Origin: Luteolibacter flavescens
GTDB taxonomy: Bacteria; Verrucomicrobiota; Verrucomicrobiia; Verrucomicrobiales; Akkermansiaceae
Length of the DNA stretch: 64,000 nt
Reading direction: 5' to 3'
Assembly (NCBI RefSeq): GCF_025950085.1
Contig: NZ_JAPDDS010000001.1
Coordinates: 682,001-746,000, forward strand
The translations under genes were made by a program, and so were the position numbers. Below, in pieces: positions 4,520 through 49,224 of this stretch. The notes beneath the pieces were generated by a model that was not told the DNA's origin, ran no database searches, and saw only the letters and a list, made by a program, of their open reading frames with translations. Each line of letters opens with the position of its first letter. The stretch's first letter is position 1.

Positions 4520-4560
4520 ACTTATTTCCGGCTGGAAGAGGTGTGGTGCGCACCCGAAAC

Positions 4561-4592
4561 AGGCCGGACTCGTCGGGGGGCGAGTCCGGCCT
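4561..4592 (+). terminator. Perfect 12-bp hairpin after the DUF892 gene
   Basis: Positions 4561-4572 pair perfectly with 4581-4592 around an 8-base loop, and a short T-rich run (CAACTTTTC) follows. It fits a Rho-independent terminator for the DUF892 gene. It also argues that translation of the next protein begins downstream, although the frame is open through the hairpin. Confidence 0.8.
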
Positions 4593-4704
4593 CAACTTTT
4601 CAAACTTCGGCGTAATTCAGAGCCTCGCACACAATGTGGAGGCGCTTATTGTAATGCCGGTCTTGCAGGGATGGGGCGGACCGGCTATCGCCGGTGCTGC
4701 ACAA

Positions 4705-42698: not shown

Positions 42699-43037
42699 AT
42701 GAGCACATCCAAAGTCAACGCGTCGAAAGGCCGCCGTTACAGCCAGAAGGAAAAGGCGGAGATCCTTGCCTTCGTGAACAAGGTGAATGAGGAAAAAGGA
42801 CGTGGCGGCCAGATGGCTGCCACGAAGAAGTACAAGCTTTCCCCGCTGACCATCGCGTCGTGGATCCGGAGCGGAGTCTCCGAGGAAGGCGAGACCCCGA
42901 TCGTCGCCGCGCACAACGCAGGCCCGATCGGCAAGAAGCTCGCCGAGCTGCAATCGCTGCACGTCCAGATCGCCAAGGCCGAGAAAGAACTGGCACGCAT
43001 GAAGACCCAGTTCACCGCGCTGAAATCGAAACTCTAA
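42699..43037 (+). CDS. Small basic helix-turn-helix protein
   Basis: 112 residues. The first half, RRYSQKEKAEILAFVNKV followed by MAATKKYKLSPLTIASWIRSG, looks like a helix-turn-helix of the transposase-like or sigma-like type, where the second helix would contact DNA. The second half (IGKKLAELQSLHVQIAKAEK) is a coiled coil, so the protein probably dimerises. It stands alone before the structured gap at 43040. Its role is unknown: a DNA-binding architectural or regulatory protein is likely. Confidence 0.7.
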   Translation: MSTSKVNASKGRRYSQKEKAEILAFVNKVNEEKGRGGQMAATKKYKLSPLTIASWIRSGVSEEGETPIVAAHNAGPIGKKLAELQSLHVQIAKAEKELARMKTQFTALKSKL

Positions 43038-43039
43038 CA

Positions 43040-43058
43040 GGAAGGGGTCTCCCCTTCC
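43040..43058 (+). terminator. Terminator-like hairpin after the helix-turn-helix gene
   Basis: Positions 43040-43047 pair perfectly with 43051-43058 around a 3-base loop, immediately after the stop at 43037. No T-tract follows, so it may act with other factors or stabilise the transcript end. Confidence 0.5.
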
Positions 43059-43059
43059 A

Positions 43060-43375
43060 ATTCCCGCGCAGGATTTCCCCTGCTCCGCGCGGATGCCAAT
43101 CCATCATCCAAGGGCGGCCGACATGACTCCGGTTCATCGGTTTCGCCCTTGGATCACTGTGTACGACATACGGGAAAACCCGCGCGTAGATACCCTAGGT
43201 GCAGATTGATTGCATTTCCCGAGGAATGGGGCATGATCTCTGTATTGCGGAAACGCAATGGTGCCCGCGGCCCTTGGGAGGGGAGCTGCGGGCACCCCCA
43301 CTTTCCAGGTTAAGAACGTGTCCATCATGGTAGCAAGTGCCCGCGGCCGGCTCCAACCCGGTCGCGGCGCATTTG
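43060..43375. other. Convergent gap packed with hairpins; possible structured RNA
   Basis: No gene is seen here, but several stems are: a 6-bp stem at 43064-43069/43087-43092; an 11-bp perfect stem at 43106-43116/43144-43154 with a nested 4-bp stem; a 6-bp stem closed by a GAAA tetraloop at about 43244-43259; an 8-bp perfect stem at 43261-43268/43288-43295; and a GC-rich stem at about 43339-43372. The sequence does not match the tmRNA, SRP RNA, RNase P or 6S patterns I know. The genes on both sides end here, so the structures are not their promoters. Confidence 0.45.
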
Positions 43376-43399: not shown

Positions 43400-44341
43400 C
43401 TAGACCACCAGCCGGCCCTTTCGCCCGGCCAATGAGACGGTAGCCAGCGAGCCCGAATTGAACTCGAGGAAATCCTGCTCGATTCCATCGCTGAAGATCA
43501 CACCGCCCTCTCCCATCCTCGACTCGATGGTCAGCGGCTCCCTCGGAGTCACCTTGCCAAATACCAGCGCGGTGCCCGTGGTATTGCTCGGAAAGGGCTC
43601 TCGAACGGTGAAGAACAAGTGATCCGACTCCCACGGAAAGGTGATGTCCTGCGGCGTGGCACCGCGTGCCTGTCCCGAGGCGGCCGCGACTGCAGCGGCA
43701 CCCGTCATCAGGCTCTTGAACCAACCGGTCGATCCGAGGCCGGTCGATACGATGATGCCGCTGGATGAGTGATCCTCAGCCGCCTTTCCCATCGCGATCC
43801 GGTATCTCGCGGAGCCGTGCGACTTCATGCCGATGAAGAGGTCATTCACCGCGCACAGGCTCAGCCCGGTATTCAGCTTTGCCTCCGCCATCGTGACATC
43901 GCGATAGGATCGCCCCGAGCGCAGCACCTCGCGCGTCACCTTCTCCAGATCCTCGATGCGGAAGGGCAGCAGCTTGCCATCCCAACGCTTCGGGTCCGGA
44001 TTCACGCCGATCAAAGGCTGGCCGTTCAGATACTTCAGCGTGTTTGCCACCAGGCCGTCCTGGCCGAGCGTCACGACGATATCCTCCGGGCCGAAGACGA
44101 AGTTCGGCAGGAAGACACGCTGCACCAATTGCACGCGGCCCAGCGTCGAGAGCGTCTGCTGGGCGCGCGTGATCGCCTTCTGGTAGGCCTCGTCCTCGCG
44201 CTCGTAGTCGGCGAAATCCCCGCCCAACCGTGTGACGTAGAACTTCGCCTGCGACTTCGTGGCAAAGCGCGCCCTGAGATCGGCCAAGCGGGTCGCCCGG
44301 ACGACGAGGATGAGCTTCGTCTCCGTGAGCCGCTTCATCAT
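43400..44341 (-). CDS. nadK: NAD kinase (ATP-NAD kinase family)
   Basis: 313 residues. The family features are the C-terminal STGLGSTGW motif, the NDLFIGMKS loop and the segment IGVNPDPKRW. The usual GGDGT box reads GQDGLVAN (residues 93-100) with Asp95 kept, so the second glycine of the motif is replaced. Longer insertions than in E. coli NadK are present near residues 40-90. It phosphorylates NAD to NADP in the cytoplasm. It is coupled to the SPFH gene by an ATGA overlap. Confidence 0.8.
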   Translation of the reverse strand: MMKRLTETKLILVVRATRLADLRARFATKSQAKFYVTRLGGDFADYEREDEAYQKAITRAQQTLSTLGRVQLVQRVFLPNFVFGPEDIVVTLGQDGLVANTLKYLNGQPLIGVNPDPKRWDGKLLPFRIEDLEKVTREVLRSGRSYRDVTMAEAKLNTGLSLCAVNDLFIGMKSHGSARYRIAMGKAAEDHSSSGIIVSTGLGSTGWFKSLMTGAAAVAAASGQARGATPQDITFPWESDHLFFTVREPFPSNTTGTALVFGKVTPREPLTIESRMGEGGVIFSDGIEQDFLEFNSGSLATVSLAGRKGRLVV

Positions 44342-45363: not shown

Positions 45364-46479
45364 GGATGGAAGGGGTTGCCCCGGCGGAAAAGACCATCCG
45401 CCAAGATGGGATGATCCTCCGCCATCACGCCGATTTGGCAAGGGGGAGAACTGGCTGCCAGCGAAGGAGACTTTAGCCGGAAGGCGAAAGGCTTCCGGTC
45501 GCTCAAGTCGCCTTCCAGCGTCCTTTCCCGAACGCTCATCTCTTGCCTTCCCAAAACTCGAGATTTCTCCGATCTTCCCGATGCCATGGATCGCGGCAGG
45601 AAGCATACCATCCTTGTCATTTCCGGCGGGCTCTTGCTCCTCCTGAGTCATGCTGTCGCGTGGCAGCTTGGAAGGACGCCCGGGACGGCACCCCCAACCC
45701 AAACCAAAGCTCCTTCCGTGAAGAATCGCGAGGCGATTCCAAGCCCCACCGATCTGGTCAGCCTCGGTCGCGAACAAGAGGCTGCAAATCTCGCGGCCAC
45801 CCGGGAGCAGCGTGAGTTGAAAGAGCTTTCATGGCTCGATCAAGTGGCCGCCGCACGCGAAAAGCTTCCTCCAGATGCGGATTTTGCCGCTCTTGCCAAG
45901 GCTGGCATGGCTGCCGCGAAAGCGACTCGAGAACACGCCAGCGCAGAAACCGTCGCAGCATTCGGCAAGTGGCTTGAACTCGACCCCGACGCCGCACTCG
46001 ATTTCTTCGGCAAGGCCAGCCATAACCAATCGACCGATGCCTTCCGTTTCGAACTCGGAGATTGGCTCGGCAAAGGAAACGAGTATCGCTTCGGTGAACT
46101 GACCAAGCGCTTCCCCCGGGCCGCCTTGGCGCTGCGCCAAGGCGCGCAGGCACTTTGCCATGATCGAGGGGCGGACTTCACCTTGCAAATGGCATCCGGG
46201 CTCGCGGACCCATCTAAACGGTTGTGGCTGCTCTACGACTGCCTGGAAGCGGAACAGTGGCAGGGCCACCTGGCCAAGATCCCGGCGTTGCTCGGTGACC
46301 GGCAAGCCACCCGGAAGCTCCTTTCCTCCATCTTCGGGAGCGAGGATTCGGAGATCCTGTTAGCCGAGATCCGCGATGCGGGATTTGCAGCGGATGATGT
46401 GGCCCTAGTGGAGACCCAAGTCGCAGAACAAAAGAAAGCAAGGTTCCAGATGGAGACGTTTCCGAACAGACAGTCTGTG

Positions 46480-46483
46480 CTAG
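46480..46483. repeat. Target-site duplication, left copy (CTAG)
   Basis: CTAG here and at 47306-47309 flank the IS directly. A 4-bp CTAG duplication fits the YTAR preference of the IS5 group. Confidence 0.85.
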
Positions 46484-46499
46484 GCTGAATCGACATTCA
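46484..46499. repeat. IS left terminal inverted repeat
   Basis: Sixteen bases, perfectly complementary to 47290-47305. The stop codon of the transposase (46497-46499) lies inside this repeat. Confidence 0.9.
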
Positions 46500-46928
46500 T
46501 TTCAACCAGATCATGGCTGCTGCGAGGTGAAGTGCGCCCATGAAATGACAATCAAGACGGTCGAACCGTGTGGCGATGCGCCTGAAGTGTTTGAGCTTGT
46601 TGAAGCATCTCTCCACCAGATTCCGCTGCTTGTAGATCTCTTTGTCGTAGCGGATGGCGCGCTTGCGGTTGATCTTTGAAGGGATCACCACACGCATCCG
46701 TTTGGCGCGCACCAGATCACGCAACGCCCGGCTGTCATAGCCTTTGTCCGCGATGACCGCCTTGGCTTTCATGCCTGCAAGCAGTTCGGGTGCGCTGCTG
46801 ATATCGGCCGCCTGCCCAGGAGTGAGAAGGAACCTCAAAGGACGGCCGGCACTGTCCGCCACCAAATGGATTTTGGTGGTCAGTCCTCCTCTGGAACGCC
46901 CCACAGCCTGGTCGCAGCCCCCCCTTTT
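46497..46928 (-). CDS. IS transposase, second frame (orfB part)
   Basis: This frame carries the catalytic half: Asp in AVIADKGYDS and Glu in NLVERCFNKLKHFRRIATRF, which complete the DDE triad begun by orfA. It has no good start and is entered by a -1 frameshift at the A4G7 run (46918-46928). The frame is open up to 47219. Together with orfA it would form a protein of about 250 residues. Confidence 0.85.
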   Translation of the reverse strand, partial: KRGGCDQAVGRSRGGLTTKIHLVADSAGRPLRFLLTPGQAADISSAPELLAGMKAKAVIADKGYDSRALRDLVRAKRMRVVIPSKINRKRAIRYDKEIYKQRNLVERCFNKLKHFRRIATRFDRLDCHFMGALHLAAAMIWLK

Positions 46929-47251
46929 CCTGTGACCGCCTGCTGGTGGGCTTTCACAATGGTGGAATCGAGCATTAGATAGGGATTGTCCCGGTCTGTG
47001 ATGAGCGATGCGAAGACTTTCTCCCAGACCTCCGCCTTGGCCCAGCGGGTGAAGCGTTTGTGAACCGTCTTCCATTTGCCATAACGTTCGGGTAGATCGC
47101 TCCAGCGCGCACCGCTGCGAAGGATCCACAGCACTCCATTGACGAAGTTGCGGTTGTCCATCGCTGTCCTTCCCGGATCGCTCGACTTGCCGGGCAACAA
47201 CTCCCGGATTTGATCCCATTGCTGTTCACTGAGTTCATAGCGCTTCGCCAT
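46880..47251 (-). CDS. IS transposase, first frame (orfA)
   Basis: 123 residues from the ATG at 47251. The start MAKRYELSEQQWDQIRELLP is typical of IS5-type proteins with a DUF4096 N-terminal domain, and the first catalytic Asp is in YLMLDSTIVKAHQ. It ends shortly after the slippery A4G7 run; most ribosomes would stop here and a minority shift to the second frame to make the full transposase. Confidence 0.88.
   Translation of the reverse strand: MAKRYELSEQQWDQIRELLPGKSSDPGRTAMDNRNFVNGVLWILRSGARWSDLPERYGKWKTVHKRFTRWAKAEVWEKVFASLITDRDNPYLMLDSTIVKAHQQAVTGKGGAATRLWGVPEED
46918..46928 (-). promoter_or_regulatory. Programmed -1 frameshift site (A4G7) in the IS transposase
   Basis: On the minus strand the sequence is AAAAGGGGGGG. 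In orfA the codons are GGA AAA GGG; in orfB they are AGG AAA AGG, one base earlier, so a -1 shift joins the frames. This kind of site is standard in two-frame IS5 elements. Confidence 0.75.
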
Positions 47252-47289
47252 GACGAGTTTGAATCAAACTTCCGGAAATCGTACAAGTC

Positions 47290-47309
47290 TGAATGTCGAT
47301 TCAGCCTAG
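47290..47309. repeat. IS right terminal inverted repeat and right CTAG duplication
   Basis: 47290-47305 is the inverted copy of the left repeat; 47306-47309 is the second CTAG. Confidence 0.88.
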
Positions 47310-47841
47310 CGTCCGCTCTGAGAGAAAAGCTCGGTCTCGCTGGGAAAGACATCTTCGATGCCAGTACTCCGAGCGAGGTCGAGGAGCTCGACAAAATAGT
47401 CCCGGGTTTCGCGGATGCCATGGCAGATCTCTGCGATGGTCGGCAGACGGAGGAGGATGTGCTGGCGCTGGTGCAGCGAACCTGGCCCCCTGCTTCCGAC
47501 CCAGCCGTGGCAACCAACCTGCGTCGCATGGTCTTCAATGCTGTCTTCATGGCTGATCCATTAAACGCATTGCAGGAGACGCCCACTACTGAAGAAGAAC
47601 CCGGTCGGGAGGTTGCGCACAGCTTGGAAGTGCTGCCTCCGGAAGTGGCCATTCGTGTTCTCACGGTTCATCCGGATCTGTTGCAAGGCGACCCGAACAT
47701 CGTTTACTCAATCTACGTCTTTCACATCGCGAAATGGCAGGACTTCGACCCCGTGGGCTGTCGCCGGGCCTTGCTAGCCGTGCCGGATGAGTCACTGCGC
47801 ACGCAGTTGCTGGAGGAATACACCCGACGGGAGGCTGGCCG

Positions 47842-49224
47842 ATGAAAAAGGAAAGCCTCGTCGCTCGCATCTCCGCCATGCTGCTCCTGCTCGTGGCCTC
47901 ACATGCCTCGGTATTCCTGATCGCACGGACTCCAACAGGCTCGACGGGCAATCATCATGACGCTCCGGATTCACCACACACCCTACCCTCGAAAACGCCT
48001 GATCGCCACAACGCAGCAGGCCCCACGGGCCCCAGCGGCACCTTTGTTCGCCGCTTGCGTGAACTGGAGGAGACGACACTGCCGCGGCGCGATTTCGAGC
48101 TCGCACGGCAAGCGCTGTTCCGCGAGTGGATTCGCCGCGACCTGCGAGGAGCCATGATCCAGCTCTACGGGCCCATGCACCGGGAGCGCTACGAATCCTT
48201 GGCCCTCACCTTGGAAACCGAGGTCGTTGAAGAGATCGCCCGTCAGCCGCGTGCCGTCTGGGATTGGCTCACTTCCCATCACTTCGGGTCGTCGGGACCA
48301 AAGGTTTTCGATTTATGGAGCAAGACCCTGATCAAGGCCGGGCACACGGACATCCTGTTAGAGTGCCTGGATCAGCCAGGTGCGCCGAACTTCAGGGATC
48401 GGAAGATCATCTCCGACCTCTGTGCAGCCATCCCGCCGGGTGCCACGGAGCAGCTTGCCATGCTGCGAAAATGGATCGAGATCCCCGAACACAGCAGTGA
48501 GGCGAGGGGACCGGCCGCGGACTTCGCAGAGCGCATGGCCGAGGAAGCCGGTGAGGATCCCCTGCCCTTTCTAAGGTCGGAGCCCGATGACGTGCTTCGC
48601 TCGATCTTCCTGGAGAAGTGGGAATCCCAGGAGCTAGGCCACCTGCCCGTGGACGAGCAGGTCCAGCGCCTGGCCGCCCTGCCAGAGGAATTCCGCGCTG
48701 CTGCCGCGGATGCCATGGTTCATCACTCGCGCGGCGACACCACCGCCGCGGTGAAGCTGATCAACTCGATGGATGCTGCCGGGCTGATGGGAGATCCCGC
48801 TGGAGAGACCGCACGGGTGCTGGCGAAGTCCGCACTGGACTGGGTGATTGAAGACGAATTCACCACCGCCTTGGAGTCCGTCCAGCGTCTGCAAGCCATC
48901 CGTGCAGAGCCGCTACGTCAGCAGGCGCTGCGGAACTTCGGTTCCCTCTTCGATCATCGTGCGCCATCACCGGTCCAGGACTGCGTGGCAGCCCTGCCTC
49001 CCGGGCCGGACCGCGATGCCTTCATCCGCGGCGTCATTATCCATACCGACTTCACGCCGGAGGTTCGCGAGCAACTGCTGTCTGCAATCGAAGACCCGCA
49101 GACCGCTGCGCAAGCCCGGCAGAATTTGGAAGAACTCAGTCGGCGGAAAAAGGAGGAAGCAGAGAAGAGCATGGAGGAGGAGGCGGAAGATCCCTTTGCG
49201 GAGATTCCTACCAAGCCTGAGTGA
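47842..49224 (+). CDS. Secreted helical-repeat protein coupled to the split gene
   Basis: 460 residues. The ATG at 47842 overlaps the TGA of the split gene (ATGA), so both were translationally coupled before the insertion. The N-terminus is a signal or anchor (LLLLVASHASVFLIA), then a Pro/His/Ser-rich linker, then a helical body with units such as IEIPEHSSEARGPAADFAER and AAVKLINSMDAAGLMGDPAG. The C-terminus is a charged helix (EELSRRKKEEAEKSMEEEAE). It belongs to the same loose family as the split gene. The IS may interrupt its transcription. Confidence 0.75.
   Translation: MKKESLVARISAMLLLLVASHASVFLIARTPTGSTGNHHDAPDSPHTLPSKTPDRHNAAGPTGPSGTFVRRLRELEETTLPRRDFELARQALFREWIRRDLRGAMIQLYGPMHRERYESLALTLETEVVEEIARQPRAVWDWLTSHHFGSSGPKVFDLWSKTLIKAGHTDILLECLDQPGAPNFRDRKIISDLCAAIPPGATEQLAMLRKWIEIPEHSSEARGPAADFAERMAEEAGEDPLPFLRSEPDDVLRSIFLEKWESQELGHLPVDEQVQRLAALPEEFRAAAADAMVHHSRGDTTAAVKLINSMDAAGLMGDPAGETARVLAKSALDWVIEDEFTTALESVQRLQAIRAEPLRQQALRNFGSLFDHRAPSPVQDCVAALPPGPDRDAFIRGVIIHTDFTPEVREQLLSAIEDPQTAAQARQNLEELSRRKKEEAEKSMEEEAEDPFAEIPTKPE

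Follow-up and report, generated by a model that had tools for sequence, protein, structure and literature searches.

A putative family of small structured RNA genes in Luteolibacter, with one copy between two convergent genes

In the genome of Luteolibacter flavescens, a 112-aa ORF (42,699-43,037, + strand) and an NAD-kinase-like ORF (43,400-44,341, − strand) face each other across a gap bounded by their stops (43,037 and 43,400). The gap is rich in potential stems, and a preliminary description had singled it out as the foremost candidate site of an undescribed non-coding RNA. This raises the question of which part of the gap, if any, belongs to such an RNA, from which strand it would be read and what kind of gene it would represent. 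All coordinates refer to the window, that is, the whole stretch of 64,000 nt that was analysed.

The gap and the conserved element

The convergent arrangement was borne out by the strands of the two ORFs, and the stems described earlier were found again: perfect stems of 8 bp (43,040-43,058) and 11 bp (43,106-43,154), a GAAA hairpin (43,244-43,259) and the 12-nt arms of a further hairpin (43,260-43,296), together with the two occurrences of GTGCCCGCGGCC (at 43,261 and 43,337). Compared with 100 dinucleotide shuffles, the gap folds better on both strands (z = −5.2 for + and −3.8 for −). Conservation is restricted to its right half, 43,185-43,375; for the left half (43,040-43,180) no conserved counterpart was found, its two stems (43,040-43,160) having only short, chance-type matches elsewhere. 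The perfect 8-bp hairpin (43,040-43,058, +), which is not conserved and lies outside the RNA family, is from its position directly 3′ of the 112-aa gene probably the terminator of that gene, a paralogue of which likewise ends in a hairpin. What stands of the proposed RNA is a structured, conserved block in the right half only, with no Rfam match; part of that block is promoter-like rather than RNA, and its strand can be fixed as +. As judged from its sequence, the right half is a single member of a hitherto unlisted family of putative small structured RNA genes.

Covariance searches with two models, derived from ten and 17 copies, respectively, recovered 19 strong copies in 7 of the 18 Luteolibacter genomes (two in the window's own genome, G000, seven in G007, three each in G009 and G010, two in G012 and one each in G003 and G015). 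The family is thus carried by ~40% of the sampled Luteolibacter species, with one to seven clear copies per carrying genome, and a few degenerate or variant members occur in G003, G007, G008, G009 and G015. Outside the genus, a search of 195 genomes of the family and 236 of the class, to which stricter filters applied, found no copy. A nucleotide search of relatives gave strong matches to the right half of the gap alone, and these only within the genus (query positions 156-343 in G007, 215-321 in G009 and 217-283 in others), and scanning with the hairpin 1-2 pattern returned no match in viral contigs and one L. marinus record among genome contigs. Rfam scans of the window, the element, ten copies and six further loci reported tRNA only, the element having no match above the gathering threshold and none at E <= 1. 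A literature search on small or structured RNAs in Luteolibacter or Verrucomicrobia, with most subscription papers outside its coverage, found nothing relevant.

The 112-aa protein has no Pfam match above the cut-off and belongs to a family with one to five copies in every Luteolibacter genome, among them the loci at window 42,699-43,037, G007:C10:270927-271229 and G000:C1:570352-570669. In three unrelated groups of the RNA gene, a gene of this protein family is 0.1-4.5 kb away, relatives being found near copies of groups A and B (defined below) and near L070. Relatives are also present in genomes without the element, and most are away from any clear copy; the proximity could be due to chance or could mark a linked regulator. 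Elsewhere in the window, overlapping transposase-like ORFs in two frames (46,497-47,251), IS5-like in appearance, split a gene that is seemingly intact in G009, where one 489-aa ORF matches both 45,586-46,488 and 47,210-47,845.

Other structures were observed beside this family. Three genomes (L145, L147 and L149, in G008:C9, G010:C1:3631702 and G015:C31, respectively) share a conserved hairpin of another kind, GGGGCGGGCGCTCGGGGAGGGGTGCCCGCCCC, with a T-tract after it and conserved GATTTGCYGCGGGTAA before it. In one or more of them it apparently precedes a protein gene; it has no Rfam match and is possibly another RNA element. At locus L188 (G008:C40:253596-253753), two divergent relatives lie in tandem, with boxes of the AAGTA type, G-rich hairpins and terminator-like hairpins (GATGGCCCCG...CGGGGCCAT). 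In the window itself, a perfect 12-bp hairpin, AGGCCGGACTCG-TCGGGGGG-CGAGTCCGGCCT, followed by CAACTTTTC (4,560-4,600), is terminator-like and has a G-rich loop.

Hairpins, covariation and strand

The 3′ part of the element carries hairpins on the + strand. Hairpin 1 (ATTGCG-GAAA-CGCAAT; 43,244-43,259), located at the predicted 5′ end of the RNA, exhibits compensatory changes (UA/CG/AU and GC/AU); its loop is of the GNRA type (GAAA or GCAA) in 12 of the 19 copies, the remainder having other loops on mostly compensated stems. Hairpin 2 (GGTGCCCGCGGCCCTTGGGAGGGGAGCTGCGGGCACC; 43,260-43,296) harbours a purine-rich GGGAGG loop region, and its plan across copies is a 14-bp stem with a GGGAGG-type loop, with 98.5% of cells paired and double changes at four pairs. 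A T-rich single-stranded linker (CCCACTTTCCAGG; 43,297-43,309, +) follows, and then the terminator-like hairpin 3 (AAGTGCCCGCGGCCGG...CCGGTCGCGGCGCATTT; 43,335-43,374, +), which is found in 18 of 23 members and absent from about five.

Covariation in hairpins 1 and 2 was evaluated on the 19 copies aligned by sequence only. Standard pairs occupy 97.6% of the cells of these two hairpins, and sliding the pairing partners abolishes the covariation signal. Double changes were found in 16 cells versus 3.2 in shuffles for hairpins 1 and 2, and at five pairs of hairpin 3 (18 copies; 14 cells versus 5.4), with none of 500 shuffles as high in either case, in tests that ignore kinship, are inflated by related sequences and use a structure derived from the very sequences tested. 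The compensatory changes that the preliminary description had named as support for an RNA are present in all three hairpins. Moreover, departures from Watson-Crick pairing on the + strand are G-U rather than A-C (62:7 and 21:3 in two hairpin counts), which assigns the RNA to the + strand.

The loop of hairpin 2 is retained where the stems change (GGGAGG or GGGGGG in 17 of 19 copies), and the variants L031 and L106, with quite different stems, still have GAGGAGG at the top. Because it is kept despite changes in the stem, this loop is the best candidate for a functional contact.

Upstream boxes and predicted RNA ends

Upstream of hairpin 1, the copies share a common plan of a (C/A)GTAGAnnCC box, TTGC 24 nt further on, a 17-nt spacer and a −10-like hexamer, represented in the window by CGTAGATACCC (43,185-43,195), the −35-like TTGCAT (43,210-43,215) and ATGATC (43,233-43,238), respectively, all on the + strand. 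The GTA of the box is invariant in the 19 aligned copies, TTGC is found in nearly all copies, and the distance between them is 24 nt in nearly all. The −10-like hexamer is fixed in position; its second base is A or T throughout the 19 copies and its sixth mostly T, and two copies have one base more in this arrangement. No base pairs between the boxes were predicted in the consensus fold upstream of hairpin 1.

TTGC is also frequent upstream of tRNA genes in the window's genome, and together with a −10-like hexamer ~17 nt on it precedes some of them (3 of 29 pass a strict test, versus 0.3 expected), a comparison that lends moderate support to the promoter reading. Simple sigma-70 promoter and terminator scans returned nothing at the element, the −10 hexamer of which is poor. 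The arrangement is read here as a putative housekeeping promoter assisted by an activator, for which the upstream box, centred some 55 to 60 nt before the predicted start, is the candidate binding site. At L138 and L143 the same box, equally spaced, seems to stand ahead of a protein gene. The GTAGA-TTGC pattern alone was rejected as a definition of a regulon, being too weak, with many further matches coding-sequence-like.

At the other end, T content in the 10-12 nt after hairpin 2 is 43% (19 copies) versus 18% in the window, and in several copies hairpin 3 is followed by a short T-tract (for example, CGCGGGTCTTTTTCTT). Hairpin 3 would be the likelier terminator, and hairpin 2 a possible early one.

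Alternative readings and a proposed role

Based on their flanking proteins, copies were placed in three groups of orthologous loci, with three species each: group A (the window, L022 and L023), group B (L067, the second copy of the window's genome, L029 and L074) and group C (L024, the second copy of L025, and L069). The hairpins could be a cis-acting leader or attenuator that governs read-through into a downstream gene, possibly by a swap in which the 3′ arm of hairpin 2 leaves its own partner for the similar arm of hairpin 3. Consistent with this, the element is upstream of a same-strand gene in group B and of a same-strand methyltransferase-like gene, which we take from its sequence to be PrmA, in group C, and both 43,261 and 43,337 are possible pairing partners of the arm at 43,285-43,295. 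However, the neighbouring genes differ between groups with no consistent neighbour, and the downstream gene in the window is convergent, which makes a leader unlikely; furthermore, some copies have wholly different hairpin-2 stems yet keep hairpin 3, so that the arm swap is not conserved in all. On balance, a leader seems improbable.

If the element were no RNA gene in its own right but only a terminator or pair of hairpins conserved at gene ends, hairpins 2 and 3 would be accounted for, as both resemble GC-rich terminators with T-rich DNA after them, and G-rich loops are shared with intrinsic terminators and some other terminator-like hairpins of the Luteolibacter genomes. This reading explains neither hairpin 1 nor the conserved promoter-like boxes at a fixed distance upstream, which the RNA family has in addition to such hairpins, and we consider it very improbable.

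The multiple, palindromic and intergenic copies per genome would also suit a REP-like dispersed repeat or a MITE-like miniature mobile element. Yet the copies occupy orthologous positions in the three groups rather than non-orthologous insertion sites, with 66-85% identity of the element between orthologues and identity mostly near or below the shuffled level in the sequence just upstream. Such positions across species indicate that the element is inherited, not mobile, and largely refute this explanation; in addition, the copies are divergent (mean column identity of 65%), the spacing of the promoter boxes is fixed and the wobble bias is strongly to one strand, leaving a mobile repeat scarcely credible. 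Neither of the outcomes that had been named as fatal to an RNA, restriction to a single strain or membership of an interspersed repeat family, was encountered, and further species retain the element, at both orthologous and paralogous loci. A reading as a short protein gene was dropped as having next to no probability. Such a gene would start at the ATG of ATGGTAGCA (near 43,327), which in several copies lies after a weak ribosome-site-like sequence and gives MVAxARGR; however, several copies lack the ATG, the frame is not maintained beyond about eight codons and what the copies have in common there is the sequence of the hairpin-3 arm.

We consider it very likely that the copies form a genuine small-RNA gene family transcribed from promoters of its own, the product being probably a regulatory RNA. 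The gene at 43,185-43,375 (+) would be driven by a promoter of the housekeeping type, with TTGC, a 17-nt spacer and a weak −10, and assisted by an activator bound to the CGTAGAnnCCC box around positions −55 to −60. The RNA would start at or just before hairpin 1 (~43,244), consist of hairpin 1, hairpin 2 with its exposed purine-rich GGGAGG loop, the T-rich linker and hairpin 3, and end at hairpin 3 (~130 nt) or partly after hairpin 2 (~65 nt), and its G-rich loop and linker may contact pyrimidine-rich targets or an RNA-binding protein. As the copies lie beside unrelated genes, action in trans is the most likely hypothesis; action in trans through the loop has slightly less than an even chance.

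Profile searches, in which the positive controls worked, found neither Hfq nor CsrA in the genome, and the usual RNA partners are therefore absent. The element accordingly falls outside the Hfq-dependent trans-acting RNAs and the CsrB/RsmY type, while its compensatory changes on one strand are those of a structured small-RNA gene; it adds a new family to a known type of gene. The alphaproteobacterial cuckoo and alpha-r15 families of trans-acting RNAs are alike in being short, with several paralogues per genome, GC-rich hairpins, promoters of their own (predicted ones in Luteolibacter) and a conserved exposed loop. Those RNAs expose CCUCC anti-Shine-Dalgarno loops and have been studied with Hfq, whereas the Luteolibacter family has a GGGAGG-type loop, resides in a genome without Hfq and has no Rfam match. 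GGA-containing hairpin loops and an upstream activator box, here a candidate one, are shared with the protein-titrating CsrB and RsmY-type RNAs, but here CsrA is lacking and there is usually a single such loop per RNA. Tentatively, and as a conjecture that as a whole is rather doubtful, the family may be a genus-restricted, multicopy class of regulatory RNAs of Verrucomicrobiota that is independent of Hfq and CsrA, makes contact through its ribosome-binding-site-like GGGAGG loop and has its members turned on together by one activator via the CGTAGAnnCCC box, which is also found ahead of a few protein genes (L138 and L143 as a possible regulon).

To our knowledge, few regulatory RNAs have been described in Verrucomicrobiota beyond widely conserved classes. 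A family with covariation, paralogues, a common promoter-like box and a clear strand provides a ready gene set for the study of small RNAs in a bacterium without the usual RNA chaperones, and the common upstream box offers a handle on the regulator.
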